DNA of 64,000 nt from Streptomyces sp. NBC_01788. GTDB lineage: Bacteria > Actinomycetota > Actinomycetes > Streptomycetales > Streptomycetaceae. The stretch spans positions 3,720,001-3,784,000 of the forward strand of contig NZ_CP109090.1 in the NCBI RefSeq assembly GCF_035917575.1, in the 5' to 3' direction. Below, one piece after another: positions 19,357 through 26,658 of the stretch. A program made the translations under genes and the position numbers. Below the pieces are notes generated by a model. The model was not told where the DNA came from, did no database searches, and saw nothing but the letters and a program-made list of their open reading frames with translations. Position 1 is the first letter of the stretch, and each line of letters begins with the position of its first letter.

Positions 19357-19598
19357 ACGCCCGGACGCTAGCCCACCCCTCGCGAAGCCCTTCTGCCTGT
19401 CGGGGAGTTGCCGTCCGACGCAACACGCCGACTGCGGGCCGACTTCCCCAACCACGGTCGTGAGCAGGGCGAATGCTACGATCCGGCCACTCGCCCGGGG
19501 GGACGAACATCAGCCGACGCAGGTTCATGACCTGCGGCTCAGTCGCGCGCTGCACAAGCCTCCCGAGTCTTCGCCTGCCATTCCTGGAGCTGACCCGC

Positions 19599-22500
19599 AT
19601 GGCCAGACGTGCGCTCATACGCGGCGCCGCCGTTTCCCTCACGCTCGCCATGGGCCTCGGCTCGCCGGCGGTCGGTACCGCGCAAGGTGAAACGGTCGCG
19701 GGAGAGGTGATCGTCCCCGCCACCACGGCCATGCTTCCCGAGACGAGCCTGCTGAGCGCGGGGCCCTCCGGTTTCCTCCGCCACGAGTACGGGCGCGGCC
19801 ACCTGTGGACGACCTACGACGGCGTCGACACGGTCGTCGACGCGTCCGCCACGGGCGTGTTCGGCCTCCCGGAATTCGGCGCGGGCTCGGACGTCGTCGC
19901 CTCCTACGACGAGTCCGACCGTGTGGTGACACTGCGGGACATGCGGTCCGGCCGGTCCCGCACGATCGCGCTTCCCGCACGCCACGAGTACCGGGCCACC
20001 CTCGGATCGACGGTCGTGACGCTGGCGGGGACCCAGGGCAGCGACGTCACGTGGCACCTGCTGGACGTCCGGGACGACGGCTCCGTCACCGACCGCACGG
20101 TGGAGGGCGTACCCCAGGGCATCTACATTCTCAACGAGCGCAACGCGGCGCTGGGCGACGCGCACGGACAGCTCGTGAGCTGGCGGGTCGACCGCGAGTC
20201 GTTCACCGGCTGGCTCGACCTCGACCAGGGCCGGCTGATCGCGCTGCCGTACACCGTGAGCGCGGGGTACCCGTTCATCGCCCTCACCGCCACACACCTG
20301 CTGTGGTGGGACGAGGGGACCGCCCACATCGCCTCCCGCCGTGACCTGACCGCCACCCCGCGGACGGTCCCGGTGCGCGACGTCGGGCAGGTGCTGGGCA
20401 TGGTCGGCGACACCCTCGTCGTCTCGCGCTACGACTCCGCCCTGGGTCCCCTCAATTACAGCCTGCCGGTGTGGAGGGTCGAGTCCGTACCCCTCGACGG
20501 CTCCCCGGGGAAGACGCTTCTGGCCAGGTCGTCGTGGCGTGCCGTGCCGACTCCGGGCGGCGGGCTCCTGGTGCCGGGCGGCCCCGGCACGGACCAGTGG
20601 GGCGTCTCCCTCGTCGAACCCGCCGTCGGCGGCGGCGTGACGGTACGCAGGATCGCCGACGCGTACCCCTGGCAGAGGGTCGACGACGTCTCCCAGCTGA
20701 CCCTGACACAAGGGCGGTTGACCACCGTGGAGACGGATCGCTCGCAGGAGTGGACGTATCTCCGCACCCGCGACATCGGTGTGGCCGGATCCCCCACCGT
20801 CGGGGCGCTCACCAACCGCGGCCGCGTGGTGCCGGAGAACTACACGGCGGGCCGCCCGCGCCTCGACGACACCGGTGACGGCCGGACGGTCGTCTGGGGC
20901 CCCGGCACCTCCGCCGCCGAGCAGCCCCACCTCCTGGGGCCCACCCGGTCGCTGCCCGGCACCCGGATCGACAGCTCCCGTACCTACCAGTTCGTGGAGG
21001 CCGTCAGCGGCCGTTTCGCCGCCCTGAGGACTCCTTACACCAGCTCCGGGTCGGAGACCCGGGTCGTCGACCTCGACACCGGGCGCACGGTGTTCACCAC
21101 GAAGGAGAACATCGAGGCGATGTGGGGCACCACCCTCTGGGTGAGATCCGGCAACGACGCGGTGGTCCCCGTCGACGTGCTGACCGGACGGCGGGGCGAC
21201 GAGGTGCTGCTCGGGCGCGGGTGCCTGCTGGACGACTTCCAGGCAGTCGGGCGATGGCTGCTGTGGACCTGCGTGGGCTCCCTCACGGGCCAGGGCGTCT
21301 ACGACACCACCACGAAGAAGAACCTCACGCTCGTCTCCGGCGACTGGTCGCAGGCGAAGCTCGGTGACGGCTTCGTCGCGATGGAGTCGGACGGGAACCT
21401 GAAGGTCACCGACGTTCGCGGCGGGACCCCCGTGTCGCACACAGTCGGGAAGTTCGAGTGGGGTCCCTGGGACGTCGACCCCTACACCGGTGTGATCGCC
21501 CAGCAGGGCGCCAAGGGCATCCACCTCATCCCCAGTGGTGTCCCCGTCTCGCCCCTCGTCCAGTTCGACGCCACCGTCGCCGCCTCGGTGGACGTCAAGG
21601 GAGGAACCGGGCAGTGGAGCCCGAAGTGGCGGCTGAACAAGCCGGCCGCCTCCTGGCAGCTCGTGATCAAGCACAAGGCCACCGGCAAGGCCGTCCGCAC
21701 CCTCTCCGGCGGCCTGGCGCGCGGCCTGGTGGCCACGGCATGGAACGGCAAGGACGGCTCCGGTCGGCTGGTGCCCAACGGCGCCTACACCTGGACGTTG
21801 ACCGCCGCACCTGCCGACGGGACGGGCAAGGCCCTGACCAGGTCCGGAACGCTGAAGCTCAGCGGCGGCGCCGCCGTGCACCGGGACTTCGTCGGCTCCG
21901 ACGGCTTCGGCGAGCTGCTGACGCTGAACGGTTCGGGCGCTCTGACCTACCAACGAAGCAACGGCGCCGGGAAGTTCACCGCCAAGACCTCCGGTTCCGG
22001 CTGGCCGAAGACCGTCAAGGCGATCCCGTACGGCGATCTGAACGGCGACCGGTGCAACGACGTGCTCGTGCGGCTCAGCAGCGGTGCCCTGCGCGCGTAC
22101 AAGCCGGGGTGCGGCAAGGCGCTGACGCCGTCGACGCCGTACACCTCCCTCGGCTCGGGCTGGAACCAGTACGACATCCTGACCTCGCCGGGGGACGTCA
22201 CGGGCGACGGACGGGCGGACCTGATCGCGCGCAAGGCGTCGACCGGGGACGTCTACCTCTTCAAGGGGACGAGCACCGGCAAGCTCTCGGCGCGCACCAA
22301 GCTCTACTCCCGGTGGACCGGATACAAGAAGATCGTGGGCGCGGGCGACCTGAACGGTGACGGCCACGGCGACCTGCTCGTCCAGGACAAGTCCAACCAG
22401 CTCTGGCGCTACAACGGCACCGGCAAGGGCAAGTTCAAGGCCCGGGTGAAGGTGGCCAAGAACTGGGGAGCCTCCTACAACGCCGTCGTCGGCGTCGGGG

Positions 22501-22643
22501 ACATCACCGGCGACGGGAAGGCCGACCTCGTCGCCCGCGACACCTCCGGCAGCCTGTGGCGCTACAACGGCAACGGCAAGGGGTCCTTCGGCGCGCGCAC
22601 GAAGATCGCCACCGGTTGGAAGGGTTACAAGGCGCTGTCCTGA
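19599..22643 (+). CDS. Secreted FG-GAP/VCBS repeat protein with FlgD-type Ig domain
   Basis: 1014 residues. The signal peptide (MARRALIRGAAVSLTLAMG...) is followed by a long beta-propeller-like N-terminal region (to about 670), then a FlgD Ig-like domain (LVIKHKATGKAVRTLSGG... WNGKDGSGRLVPNGAYTWTL). The C-terminus has four FG-GAP-type calcium-binding repeats with loops GDLNGDRCNDVLV, GDVTGDGRADLIA, GDLNGDGHGDLLV and GDITGDGKADLVA. Streptomycetes often encode paralogues of this architecture; the exact role, probably extracellular binding, is unknown. ATG 19599 follows GGAG and directly precedes the signal peptide. Confidence 0.87.
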   Translation: MARRALIRGAAVSLTLAMGLGSPAVGTAQGETVAGEVIVPATTAMLPETSLLSAGPSGFLRHEYGRGHLWTTYDGVDTVVDASATGVFGLPEFGAGSDVVASYDESDRVVTLRDMRSGRSRTIALPARHEYRATLGSTVVTLAGTQGSDVTWHLLDVRDDGSVTDRTVEGVPQGIYILNERNAALGDAHGQLVSWRVDRESFTGWLDLDQGRLIALPYTVSAGYPFIALTATHLLWWDEGTAHIASRRDLTATPRTVPVRDVGQVLGMVGDTLVVSRYDSALGPLNYSLPVWRVESVPLDGSPGKTLLARSSWRAVPTPGGGLLVPGGPGTDQWGVSLVEPAVGGGVTVRRIADAYPWQRVDDVSQLTLTQGRLTTVETDRSQEWTYLRTRDIGVAGSPTVGALTNRGRVVPENYTAGRPRLDDTGDGRTVVWGPGTSAAEQPHLLGPTRSLPGTRIDSSRTYQFVEAVSGRFAALRTPYTSSGSETRVVDLDTGRTVFTTKENIEAMWGTTLWVRSGNDAVVPVDVLTGRRGDEVLLGRGCLLDDFQAVGRWLLWTCVGSLTGQGVYDTTTKKNLTLVSGDWSQAKLGDGFVAMESDGNLKVTDVRGGTPVSHTVGKFEWGPWDVDPYTGVIAQQGAKGIHLIPSGVPVSPLVQFDATVAASVDVKGGTGQWSPKWRLNKPAASWQLVIKHKATGKAVRTLSGGLARGLVATAWNGKDGSGRLVPNGAYTWTLTAAPADGTGKALTRSGTLKLSGGAAVHRDFVGSDGFGELLTLNGSGALTYQRSNGAGKFTAKTSGSGWPKTVKAIPYGDLNGDRCNDVLVRLSSGALRAYKPGCGKALTPSTPYTSLGSGWNQYDILTSPGDVTGDGRADLIARKASTGDVYLFKGTSTGKLSARTKLYSRWTGYKKIVGAGDLNGDGHGDLLVQDKSNQLWRYNGTGKGKFKARVKVAKNWGASYNAVVGVGDITGDGKADLVARDTSGSLWRYNGNGKGSFGARTKIATGWKGYKALS

Positions 22644-22713: not shown

Positions 22714-22934
22714 CGCCGTGTTGCCCGCCGCCCGCCGGCCACCGTGGCCCGGCTGCCGCCCCGGGCCGGGCCGGCGACGGCGTTTGCGTGCCCGCATGGC
22801 TATTGACCTGCTCAGATCCGCTGTGCTTCGCTCCCCGGTGAGGGCCTGGGGCACCGCTACTGACTGTGGCCGTCCGCTCTGAAGGGCACACCAAGGGCAC
22901 GGACGGCGTGCAGGGGCGGACGAGGGGGTATGAC

Positions 22935-24356
22935 GTGTCTCGGGGCTTTGGGAGACGTATCGGGATTGCGGGCGAAGTGACCGCTCCGCCCAGACACATA
23001 CCGGACCTGCTTCGATCACGGGCGGGACTCTGGGCCGTGACGGGTGTCGCGGCCCTCGGATTCCTCATCGTGCTGGAGTTCGCCGCGCGTCACTACGGCC
23101 TGCCGGGACCCCTCACCAGCCAGGTGCGGGAGCTGGTGGTCCCCCCCAAGTCGGGCGGCCTGCTGTACGCCGCCATGGCGTTGATGATGGTGGTCCTGAC
23201 CTGGCGGGAACGGTTCGTCGCGGTGACCGCGGCGGTCGGCATCGACATCGCCTTCTCGCTGGTCCGGTGGGCGTTGGACGTCAGGACGACCGGCGGCCAC
23301 CCCTTCGGCAACGGGGCGTTGTGGGTGATTCTGTGCTGCGCGGTCGTCGCCGTCACCCGCCGCACCGGCGCAGAACGTGTCCTGCTGCTGAAGGGCGTCG
23401 GGCTGGGCCTGCTGCTGGTGGCCGGCCGCAAGACCGGCGACACATGGCTGCTCATCACCTCGAAGACCCGCCCGGCGGTGCTCGACCAGTACGTGGCGAC
23501 AGCCGATCACGCGCTGGGCAACCCGTCGTGGCTGGTGGGCCGGATCGTCACGGCCACCGGCCCCTTCGGCTTCAATTTCCTCGACATCGTCTACGGTCAG
23601 CTCGCGGTGGCCGCGGTCGCCGTCGCGCTGTACCAACTGCGCGGCGTGGCGGTCGAACGCCGCTTCCCGGGCCATCACCTGGTGCGCAGCTTCCTCGTGA
23701 TCGGCCTTCTCGGGCCGGCCTTCTACCTGATCTTCCCGGTGGTCGGGCCGATCTTCGCCTACGGAACCGGCACCGACTACTGGTCGTCGGTCAGCCTGTG
23801 GTCGCCGGACATTCCGTCCAGCGGGCACTGGGCGGTGGGCGACCTGTGGCCGCAGACGCCGTCGCTGATCGACGCCCCGCACCCGATGCAGTTCGACGAG
23901 ATCACTCCGCGGAACTGCATGCCCAGCCTGCACACGGCGTGGGCCGCCGCGATCTTCATCCATTCCCGGAAGGGCCCGCGCGTCCTGCGGTACGCGGGCA
24001 CGTTCTGGCTGGTCGCCACGCTCACCGCGACGCTGGGCTTCGGCTACCACTACGGCGTGGATCTCATAGCCGGCGTGGTCTTCGTCCTCACGATCGAGGC
24101 GGCCCTGCGGGCGTTCGACCGCGGCTGGGACCGATCGGGGATCCGGCTGGCCGCGTACGGCGCGGCGGTCTTCGCCGCGCTGCTGGTGTCCTACCGCTTC
24201 CTGCCGTTGACGATGGCCGAGCACCCGTGGCTGTCCGGCCCCCTGCTCATCCTCGCGATGGCCTCAGTGATCTACGGCTACGTACGGACCACCACGGCAT
24301 GGGACCCGAGGCCCGCACCAGCACGACGCCCGGAACCGCAACCGGAACCGATCTGA
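22935..24356 (+). CDS. PAP2/Aur1-like membrane phosphatase or phosphotransferase
   Basis: 473 residues with about ten transmembrane helices. Phosphatase motifs of the PAP2_3 (Aur1/Ipt1) type are seen in the second half: CMPSLHTAWAAA contains the SxxH motif and GFGYHYGVDLIAG the HxxxD motif. Such enzymes hydrolyse or transfer lipid phosphates, for example undecaprenyl-PP or phosphatidylinositol. GTG 22935 is preferred because GAGGGG precedes it by 7 bases; GTG 22866 would add 23 residues. A terminator follows, then tRNA-fMet on the other strand, so it is a single-gene unit. A link to the glycosyltransferase 600 bp downstream is only positional. Confidence 0.83.
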   Translation: MSRGFGRRIGIAGEVTAPPRHIPDLLRSRAGLWAVTGVAALGFLIVLEFAARHYGLPGPLTSQVRELVVPPKSGGLLYAAMALMMVVLTWRERFVAVTAAVGIDIAFSLVRWALDVRTTGGHPFGNGALWVILCCAVVAVTRRTGAERVLLLKGVGLGLLLVAGRKTGDTWLLITSKTRPAVLDQYVATADHALGNPSWLVGRIVTATGPFGFNFLDIVYGQLAVAAVAVALYQLRGVAVERRFPGHHLVRSFLVIGLLGPAFYLIFPVVGPIFAYGTGTDYWSSVSLWSPDIPSSGHWAVGDLWPQTPSLIDAPHPMQFDEITPRNCMPSLHTAWAAAIFIHSRKGPRVLRYAGTFWLVATLTATLGFGYHYGVDLIAGVVFVLTIEAALRAFDRGWDRSGIRLAAYGAAVFAALLVSYRFLPLTMAEHPWLSGPLLILAMASVIYGYVRTTTAWDPRPAPARRPEPQPEPI

Positions 24357-24410: not shown

Positions 24411-24416
24411 ACGTAG

Positions 24417-24490
24417 TAGCGGGGACAGGATTTGAACCTGCGACCTCTGGGTTATGAGCCCAGCGAGCTACCGAGCTGCTCCACCCCGCG
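24417..24490 (-). tRNA. Initiator tRNA-fMet (anticodon CAT)
   Basis: Cloverleaf on the minus strand, 74 nt. Initiator hallmarks are the unpaired first acceptor position (C1 opposite T72) and three consecutive G-C pairs in the anticodon stem (CTGGG/CCCAG) around loop CTCATAA, with the anticodon at 24454-24456. CCA is not encoded. Confidence 0.93.
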
Positions 24491-24844
24491 TCGGCATGAG
24501 CAACAGTACCCGACTCGGAAGCGGATGCCGAACAGGGGCCTGCGCGGTTGGGCATGCCGGGCATGGGACCGCGAGCGCCGGGCGTGACATCTGTCACTCA
24601 AAAAGTGATTGAAGGTGGGACAACTGTGCACGTGCGTCCCACTTTGCGGTAGTCGGCTCGATCCCTCCCTCAACCCGACTCGCAGCGCCACCCATTACGG
24701 AAACCGCCCGCGGCAGTACGGTTTGTCGGGCGCCATGTGAAGATCATGTGAAAACTTCGCGGGGGATGCGGGTGGGGCTATCCGGTCGACCGGTCGGTAC
24801 GACCGTGATCTGCCCCACCCGCAATGAAGTCGAGGGGGAACGTC
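24491..24844. other. Intergenic region between tRNA-fMet and the glycosyltransferase locus
   Basis: No gene of ordinary length. It contains the tRNA-fMet promoter region (left), a short inverted repeat TCACT-N5-AGTGA (24594-24608), an 11-bp direct repeat (24734-24752) and a CCGGTCGACCGG palindrome near 24781-24792. Confidence 0.5.
24734..24752. promoter_or_regulatory. 11-bp direct repeat resembling a PHO box
   Basis: CATGTGAA occurs at 24734 and again at 24745. Read on the minus strand this is TTCACATG repeated with exact 11-bp spacing, which shares TTCAC and the period with the PhoP direct-repeat unit seen at 16601. The downstream half of each unit matches less well, so PhoP binding is a hypothesis. 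Confidence 0.4.
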
Positions 24845-24907
24845 ATGTGCGGACTTGCGGCCACCGGTCTGTCCACCGTCGCGTACGCGGCAGTCCCGGA
24901 GGCGTGA
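24845..24907 (+). CDS. 20-residue mini-ORF with an LAxTG motif upstream of the glycosyltransferase
   Basis: MCGLAATGLSTVAYAAVPEA, preceded by a good ribosome-binding site (GAGGGGGAA, 7 bases from the ATG) and 66 bp upstream of the glycosyltransferase. It contains LAATG, the Streptomyces sortase-type LAxTG pattern, followed by a short apolar stretch too short for a full membrane anchor and with no basic tail. It could be a leader peptide, a small membrane peptide or chance. Confidence 0.4.
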   Translation: MCGLAATGLSTVAYAAVPEA

Positions 24908-24973
24908 ACCGGCCGCCTCCTCCCTTTTCGAGCCCCGCCGATTCCATCTCAGAAGGACCCACAAGAGGCACCC

Positions 24974-26059
24974 ATGGGGAAGCATCGAAGATCGGGCCTG
25001 ACGCCCGCCGCGATCCGCGACGTGATCGCCCTGATACCGGCCCACAACGAGGCCGACGCCATCGCGGACTCCATCCAGGGGCTGTACGGACAGACCGTGC
25101 CCCCGCAGCGGGTCATCGTCGTCGCGGACAACTGCACCGACGCCACCGTGGCCATCGCGGACTCCCTGAGGGCCGAGGTCTTCGAGACCCGGGGCAACCG
25201 GCACAAGAAGGCCGGGGGCCTGAACCAGGTCCTGGCCGAGCTGCTGCCCGGTCTGCACGACGACGACGTGGTTCTCGTGACGGACGCGGACAGCGCCCTG
25301 GACCCCGGCTTCGTGGCCTGTGGGGTCGAGCATCTCGCGAAGGGCTACGGGGGCGTGGGCGGCACCTTCCGGGGAGGGCCCGGCGGGGGCTTCGTGGGCC
25401 ACCTCCAGCGCAACGAGTACGCCCGCTACTCGCGGGACGTGAAGCGACTGGGCGGCAAGTGCCTGGTGCTCACCGGCACGGCGGCCATGTTCCGGGTGCA
25501 GGTGCTGCGCCAGATCTCCCGGGCCCGCCTGACGGGCCGCCTCCCGGCCGGGGACGGGATCGGGGGCATCTACGACACCTCGGTGCTCACCGAGGACAAC
25601 GAACTGACCTTCGCGGTGCTGCACCTGGGCCATCAGGTGCTCTCACCGCAGGGCTGCACGCTCACCACCGAGGTCATGCTGACCTGGAAGGCCCTGTGGG
25701 ACCAGCGACTGCGCTGGAAGCGGGGAGCGGTGGAGAACTGTGTCCAGTACGGCCTGACGCACATCACGTGGCGCTACTGGGGCCGTCAGCTCCTGAGCAT
25801 GGCCGGCGTCCTCGTGACCGTCGTCTACCTGTCGACCATCGCCTACTCCCTGGCCCTGCACTCGTTCCGCCCGCACGAGTTCTGGCTCTGGGTATCGCTC
25901 GTCTTCGTGATCGAGCGGGTTGTGACCGTGCGGGAGCGCGGCTGGAAACGGATGCTGCTCGCCGCGTCCATGTACGAGCTCTTCTTCGACTTCCTGCTCC
26001 AGGCCTGCCACACCAAGGCGTACCTGGACTCCGTGTTCCGCCGTGAGCGCGCCTGGTAG
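24974..26059 (+). CDS. Processive family 2 glycosyltransferase, membrane-bound
   Basis: 361 residues. The GT-A domain has substrate-binding DNCTD (Asp52), the metal-binding TDADS (Asp104/Asp106), the catalytic TEDNE (206-210) and the acceptor motif QRLRW (244-248), as in cellulose, chitin and hyaluronan synthases. About three C-terminal transmembrane helices follow (LLSMAGVLVTVVYLSTIAYSL, FWLWVSLVFVIERVV and one near residue 335). It probably polymerises a cell-surface polysaccharide on the inner face of the membrane and secretes it; the sugar is unknown. ATG 24974 has only a modest ribosome-binding site. The LAxTG peptide gene follows after 43 bp, suggesting an operon. Confidence 0.87.
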   Translation: MGKHRRSGLTPAAIRDVIALIPAHNEADAIADSIQGLYGQTVPPQRVIVVADNCTDATVAIADSLRAEVFETRGNRHKKAGGLNQVLAELLPGLHDDDVVLVTDADSALDPGFVACGVEHLAKGYGGVGGTFRGGPGGGFVGHLQRNEYARYSRDVKRLGGKCLVLTGTAAMFRVQVLRQISRARLTGRLPAGDGIGGIYDTSVLTEDNELTFAVLHLGHQVLSPQGCTLTTEVMLTWKALWDQRLRWKRGAVENCVQYGLTHITWRYWGRQLLSMAGVLVTVVYLSTIAYSLALHSFRPHEFWLWVSLVFVIERVVTVRERGWKRMLLAASMYELFFDFLLQACHTKAYLDSVFRRERAW

Positions 26060-26102
26060 CGGGTCGCTTCAGAAACTGTCAGAGATCATTTGGGAGGGAC
26101 CC

Positions 26103-26261
26103 ATGTACAACAACCCTGCGACGACTGTGGGCGGTGGGGCGTTGGCCTCTACCGGTATCGGACTGACGACCAGCGTGTGGCTGGGCCTGGCGGCCTTCGC
26201 CCTGGTGGCCCTGGGAACCGCCGTGATGCGGATCGTGCCTCGGGGCGCGAACCGCACGTAG
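26103..26261 (+). CDS. 52-residue LAxTG sorting-signal peptide, partner of the glycosyltransferase
   Basis: Almost the whole protein is a sortase sorting signal: a short N-terminus (MYNNPATTVGGGA), LASTG at residues 15-19, a hydrophobic helix (SVWLGLAAFALVALGTAVM) and a basic end (RIVPRGANRT). LAxTG is the motif used by class E sortases of Streptomyces, such as those acting on chaplins. There is no passenger domain, so after cleavage only about 18 residues would be attached to the wall. GGGAGGGA lies 4-10 bases before the ATG. The gene follows the glycosyltransferase by 43 bp and is followed by a terminator. Confidence 0.72.
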   Translation: MYNNPATTVGGGALASTGIGLTTSVWLGLAAFALVALGTAVMRIVPRGANRT

Positions 26262-26316
26262 CCGCGAAGCGGGCAACACGGTCCACGAAGGTCCGATCCA
26301 ACGCCCCCAGCACAGC

Positions 26317-26361
26317 ATCAAGCCCCCTGACAGCGGAGAACCCGCAGGCAGGGGGCTTGAT
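26317..26361 (+). terminator. Terminator after the LAxTG peptide gene
   Basis: 13-bp perfect stem ATCAAGCCCCCTG with its complement and a 19-base loop. Confidence 0.75.
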
Positions 26362-26430: not shown

Positions 26431-26658
26431 ATGGACTGGTTCATATCCCTTGCCTTCGCCGTCCCATTCGTTGCGCTGGGGACAGCCATCGTCCGGGACT
26501 ACCGAGGGTTTCGGAGCCGCTTCTATCAGCCTCGGACGGGACGACCGTCCGAGGCCGCGGAGCAACGCTACGGAGGGGTCACACGGCTGGTCGGCTGGGT
26601 CTTCATCGTGCTCTCGCTGTACCCGCTCGTCGGAGAGACGGTCCGACTCTTCCTGTAG
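26431..26658 (+). CDS. Small membrane protein, two predicted transmembrane helices
   Basis: 75 residues: hydrophobic segments at about residues 3-20 (WFISLAFAVPFVALGTAI) and 51-72 (LVGWVFIVLSLYPLVGETVRL) with a basic, polar loop between. No family recognised. TACCGT at 26419-26424 lies exactly 6 bases before the ATG and there is no ribosome-binding site, so a leaderless transcript is likely. Confidence 0.65.
   Translation: MDWFISLAFAVPFVALGTAIVRDYRGFRSRFYQPRTGRPSEAAEQRYGGVTRLVGWVFIVLSLYPLVGETVRLFL

Follow-up and report, generated by a model that had tools for sequence, protein, structure and literature searches.

Why should the gene for a membrane glycan synthase be followed at once by a gene whose product, of only 52 residues, carries a sortase-type LASTG motif? 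The question is raised by the window analysed here, 64,000 nucleotides of Streptomyces sp. NBC_01788 (contig NZ_CP109090.1, positions 3,720,001 to 3,784,000), in which a glycosyltransferase family 2 (GT2) gene and the small gene, for what is here called the minipeptide, form a pair (Table 1). Sequence comparison and fold prediction suggest that the two-gene module may fix a surface sugar polymer to the wall in a manner not described before. The minipeptide would be processed by class E sortase and would anchor or carry the synthase product, a tentative proposal that is believed nearly as much as it is doubted.

An initial annotation had described the synthase gene, a gap of 43 bp and then the LASTG open reading frame (ORF) with a ribosome-binding site, hydrophobic stretch and basic tail, and all of these are found in the sequence, the GGGAGGG ending 4 nt 5′ of the minipeptide ATG. 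Among window ORFs of 60 residues or fewer, no other has L[AP]xTG together with both hydrophobic stretch and basic tail, and 0.05 such ORFs per window are expected from 20 draws of an order-2 Markov control; that control and the conservation in relatives rule out a chance or mis-called ORF. A mini-ORF had been proposed on each side of the GT2 gene. The 3′ one stands and the 5′ one, a 20-codon ORF with LAATG (24845-24907; 27 codons if begun at an in-frame ATG at 24824), does not. It has neither hydrophobic span nor basic tail, and small L[AP]xTG ORFs number three in the window against a control mean of 3.6. In a comparison with four closest relatives it persists, in altered form, only in L041, where the GT2 is 99% identical; the motif is LAADG in L043 and the ORF is absent from L042 and L044. 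Being at chance level and unconserved in three of these four, it was dropped as a second anchor.

The pairing itself is widespread, many soil actinobacteria having it. With a profile of 18 GT2 homologues, a minipeptide-type small ORF is found directly 3′ of the GT2 gene in 80/80 named actinobacterial loci (the best 80 of 109), and in 70 of these the L[AP]xTG is strict. The remaining ten are four from Pseudonocardia or Actinomycetospora with SLPFL-, two from Arsenicicoccus with LTYAG, two degenerate ones from Arthrobacter and two with LAYSG; six of the ten were missed by the initial automatic detector and recognised by eye. A single detector with a looser motif fires 3′ of 72 of 78 GT2 genes, as against 3 of the 509 remaining genes of those loci. 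Within the window's GT2 family the minipeptide is present at 25 of 26 GT2 places; none was found at the sole exception, L037 from Streptomycetaceae, whose GT2 frame has additional sequence at its C-terminus. At one Pseudonocardia dioxanivorans locus (L067:7041-7278) the minipeptide is clean only from an internal start while a database homologue, P0177, starts MYN, and a frameshift or assembly error is possible there.

Sampling the class evenly with 148 genomes shows where the pairing thins out. All 13 minipeptide matches with E<1e-9 lie directly 3′ of a GT2 match. The other 43 of the 56 rows are weaker, and the 19 of them whose loci were inspected (L154 having been read in the wrong frame) are mostly generic sorting signals at the ends of longer open frames; L152 (match at locus position 1501) has a divergent MY...LAFTG minipeptide with a GT2 motif in the locus. 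From the GT2 side, 22 genes at E up to 1e-40 are followed by a strict LxTG minipeptide in 12 cases, by an MY-type minipeptide without LxTG in four and by another small membrane protein in six. The last six form a sister clade, with an LxTG-less small membrane protein in the minipeptide's place in L181, L182, L183 and L186, and a partner fused to a GGDEF domain in the other two, which suggests cyclic-di-GMP-type control of the synthase. Homology between the LxTG minipeptides and the LxTG-less partner was not established (hhalign probability 2.7; single-sequence comparison was also without result). The expectation of the initial annotation that GT2 homologues would be followed by an LAxTG ORF in most genomes is borne out for nearer homologues and for phages; of the more distant class-wide GT2s only 12 of 22 have strict LxTG after them. 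A strict LxTG partner is usual, not universal. Mapped on an 82-row GT2 tree (hand-thinned from 116 distinct sequences, with those of eight loci not included), the LxTG label requires six changes, and so it looks old and mostly kept.

Phages carry the pair as well. A tblastn search gave 26 phage records with a GT2 relative, and of the 13 fetched, ten are actinophages (Merry, RobsFeet, Count, TinyMiny, AWGoat, SilentRX, Cantare, Fireman, Tyrumbra and RikSengupta), all with a MY...LAxTG ORF after the GT2, the GT2 identity being only 28-30% in five. In the non-actinobacterial phages Javan622, Lb338-1 and Moorella MCACPph1 the minipeptide is the next annotated gene after the GT2 in none of the three. 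A scan of viral contigs yielded a GT2 relative in two loci, each with a minipeptide, and tblastn of the minipeptide itself on phage records matched nothing even with E values of up to 10 allowed, a search too insensitive since minipeptides are there. In Metamorphoovirus phages, a few genes past the pair, a gene annotated as UDP-glucose dehydrogenase adjoins one annotated as a second glycosyltransferase.

What the small protein looks like bears on what it may do. Its 118 loci comprise 112 unique sequences, with L[AP]xTG, chiefly LAATG and LAMTG, in 102 and Tyr at residue 2 in 108, keeping in mind that the start-choosing script favoured starts followed by Tyr. In a set of 121 proteins called by others, found by similarity and hence enriched, Tyr2 is present in 108, [MVL]Y within the first 30 residues in 118 and the motif in 106; among the 94 with both Tyr2 and motif no tail has a second Tyr, and Ser or Thr is present in 88. 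The start codon varies (ATG, GTG, TTG) and the Tyr is constant. With pN/pS (nonsynonymous relative to synonymous polymorphism) at 0.05-0.39 across seven groups, the minipeptide is under purifying selection. The tail is rich in Gly, Ala, Ser and Thr and neutral in mean charge, and since the C-terminal end exceeds the tail in basicity in 100 of 102 minipeptides, the tail would be outside and the basic end inside. No Pfam family, and no NCBIfam family over cut-off, PgaD/IcaD models included, was found for the 52-residue protein (short proteins score weakly), and PHROG has no family for it or for the four phage minipeptides scanned; named relatives (the best 120 of 193) are mostly ‘hypothetical protein’.

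An LAxTG/LPxTG motif, a hydrophobic span with a basic end and a genome that encodes class E sortase are all present, as for the known class E substrates, the chaplins ChpA-C of Streptomyces coelicolor and CwpA/B of Actinoplanes. Unlike those, the minipeptide has about 50 residues, typically stands beside one GT2 and has no signal peptide, the stretch before the motif, only 7-21 residues of neutral mean charge, not resembling a Sec signal when judged without a signal-peptide predictor; for Actinoplanes, seven Cwp candidates with lengths of 219-762 aa are given in an excerpt of PMC13251363. By its sequence the minipeptide appears to work like a class E sortase substrate, yet not a canonical one.

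The window genome has nine PF04203 sortases, two of them class E (NF033747 over cut-off). In a survey of 93 genomes, 89 after dropping four duplicates recognised by identical places, NF033747 is over cut-off in 80, of which 68 have a strict LxTG minipeptide and 12 do not, so that class E is present in 68 of the 69 genomes with strict LxTG versus 12 of the 20 without (Fisher p = 1.4e-5). Of the nine genomes without class E over cut-off, strict LxTG is missing from eight; in the other, G202, the minipeptide gene is directly followed by that of a class E-like sortase scoring 140 bits. The association is suggestive only. Motif loss through absence of any sortase is ruled out by PF04203 in 22/22 genomes checked, in four of which class E specifically is below cut-off. 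In Pseudonocardia and Actinomycetospora, where class E is not over cut-off in four genomes of unstated completeness, a clade-conserved SLPFL(E/Q)MSP-like stretch stands for LAxTG and the C-terminal end is longer. GT2, minipeptide and class E-type sortase genes lie in a row in G048 (LPITG; sortase 177.7 bits) and in G202 (LAMTG; 140 bits against a cut-off of 160), and upstream of a second G202 copy of the pair lies a divergently oriented gene for a class-F-like sortase, which at 66 bits is under the cut-off. Further class E-type sortases were looked for with a home-made profile and not found in the scanned loci, whose flanks are often only 1.5 kb. Because of the association and the two gene sets, sortase processing of the minipeptide tail gains support and is likely. 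S. coelicolor SrtE1 cuts LAXTG peptides, according to an excerpt of PMC5148588.

The synthase is assigned to PF00535/PF13641 in Pfam and to nothing above cut-off in NCBIfam. Residues D104, D106, T206-E207-D208, Q244, R247 and W248, which we take to be the DxD, TED and QxxRW motifs, are invariant in sets A1 and A4. The predicted fold matches hyaluronan synthases of Chlorella virus and animals, also virus-carried in part, in the GT domain, the membrane helices that follow it and these motifs. In contrast to them the window GT2 has an LAxTG partner and is without the first two helices: residue 11 of the model aligns to residue 79 of the Chlorella virus chain, and there is no membrane-length helix before the first strand (residue 17). 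The GT2 is probably a membrane-embedded, processive synthase. As to its product, the presence of beta-glucanase-type neighbours at some loci points away from hyaluronan. In Herbiconiux a GT2 homologue (P0020) is preceded by an apparent second, degenerate GT-like stretch.

Two other known arrangements are comparable. In PgaC-PgaD and IcaA-IcaD a processive GT2 has a small membrane partner encoded directly 3′, a layout shared here, but the partner here has LAxTG and the GT2 scores 67.1 against the 422.3-bit cut-off of the PgaC/IcaA poly-GlcNAc synthase model TIGR03937. Polysaccharide glycosyltransferases are tied to a C-terminal sorting enzyme in PEP-CTERM/EpsH sorting and with XrtG- and XrtP-associated GT2s; the enzyme there is an exosortase and here a class E sortase, and the window GT2 is far below their models (TIGR03111, 21.3 versus 363.95 bits; NF053846, 24 versus 520).

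In the mechanism proposed, the GT2 would make a glycan while the minipeptide inserts without a cleavable signal peptide, class E sortase would cut LAx-T|G, and the Tyr-bearing tail would be joined to peptidoglycan precursors. The initial annotation had counted 18 residues for that mature part; cutting at LAST|G leaves 17. The tail would then serve the product as anchor or carrier, the near-invariant Tyr2 being the likeliest attachment or primer point, and the glycan would be wall-fixed. Tyr is a possible glycan primer in glycogenin and Tyr-linked S-layer glycans, where the enzymes are not known to be related, and conservation is what points to its use by the minipeptide. Covalent attachment through Tyr2 would be the boldest part. 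The fuller version, a dedicated peptide carrier of about 50 residues at whose terminal Tyr the adjacent synthase starts or couples the polysaccharide, the carrier ligated to peptidoglycan by class E sortase and the whole taken up by phages as a portable surface-coating cassette, is conceivable, with doubt the stronger.

Several results weigh against the anchor or carrier proposal. The first Foldseek match of the GT2 model is the archaeal mannosyltransferase PcManGT, tied with hyaluronan synthase on Z (25.2), and L158 (match at locus position 1501) has a MY...LALTG minipeptide with no GT2 motif within 1.5 kb, possibly an orphan; these two slightly lower confidence in it. A tree-based check of the sortase link offers five independent pairs, one or two as expected and none opposite, which is too few.

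The chief rival, itself somewhat unlikely, could hold together with the anchor or carrier proposal. It takes the minipeptide as a membrane subunit of the synthase, as PgaD is for PgaC or IcaD for IcaA, with its helix replacing the missing GT2 helices and the sortase cut being maturation or an off switch, no glycan being attached. The alignment beginning only at residue 79 of the viral enzyme fits this, as do the small or GGDEF-fused membrane proteins kept by the sister GT2s and the hydrophobic span with its (I/V)-P end, which is retained even in minipeptides that lack LAxTG. It leaves unexplained why an outside tail keeps LAxTG and Tyr2; moreover the two partner types are without shown homology, and in a joint AlphaFold model of GT2 and minipeptide, made to look for contacts, the minipeptide helix has a pLDDT (predicted local distance difference test) of about 59. 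Distinctly less probable is a GT2 that is no polymerase and adds one or a few sugars to a tail Tyr, Ser or Thr, giving a small wall-linked glycopeptide. The PcManGT match, GalNAc-T2 further down the Foldseek list and the frequency of Ser or Thr in tails would suit it, but QxxRW and the membrane helices fit processive synthases too, and glucanase-type and deacetylase neighbours suggest a polymer. Mere co-transcription of an ordinary tiny wall or membrane protein, its role unrelated to the glycan, accords with a tie seen as gene pairing alone and with L158, but is very improbable given the strong matches always after a GT2 and a pairing common to phages and many genera.

Around the pair in the window lie a DUF5933 and PAP2 membrane protein gene upstream (22866-24356), a tRNA-Met between it and the GT2 (24416-24490) and a large secreted-looking FG-GAP repeat protein (19473-22643); FG-GAP-like repeats are present too in the GH16-type neighbour of L085. 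A 75-residue ORF 3′ of the minipeptide (26431-26658) has two hydrophobic stretches and no Pfam or NCBIfam match.

Table 1. Coordinates of the gene pair in the window and of related features in other loci
Feature	Location	Strand	Basis or remark
GT2, predicted membrane glycan synthase, 361 aa	24974..26059	+	DxD, TED, QRLRW motifs; predicted fold
GGGAGGG, likely ribosome-binding site of minipeptide	26092..26098	+	read from sequence
52-residue minipeptide gene: MYN start, Gly/Ala/Thr tail, LASTG (26142-26156), hydrophobic span, MRIVPRGANRT end	26103..26261	+	
GT2-minipeptide-sortase gene sets, class E-type sortase after minipeptide	L198:5422-7380; L199:5244-7156		
Gene set with class-F-like sortase divergently upstream	L200:3693-5824		
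GGDEF-fused small membrane partner of sister GT2	L187:206-1465; L188:212-1471	-	
UDP-glucose dehydrogenase/second glycosyltransferase, Metamorphoovirus	L012:6243-7768; L128:8243-9768; L129:5243-6768		
SLPFL(E/Q)MSP-like minipeptides	L065, L083, L089; 14 proteins among P0175-P0236		genomes without class E sortase over cut-off

Wall polysaccharides of Gram-positive bacteria are attached by ligases of the LytR-CpsA-Psr type. No description of the GT2-minipeptide pair was found in the titles and abstracts listed from the open-access literature (preprints being outside the scope), and the tiny size of the second gene seems to be why this conserved module has escaped notice. In actinophages the pair may serve to modify the surface of infected cells, which it would remodel, for example excluding competitors. 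If the carrier reading is true, it would mean sortase-mediated wall anchoring of polysaccharide, and wall polysaccharides would then have, besides those ligases, a second and genetically simple means of attachment, by sortase via a minimal peptide.
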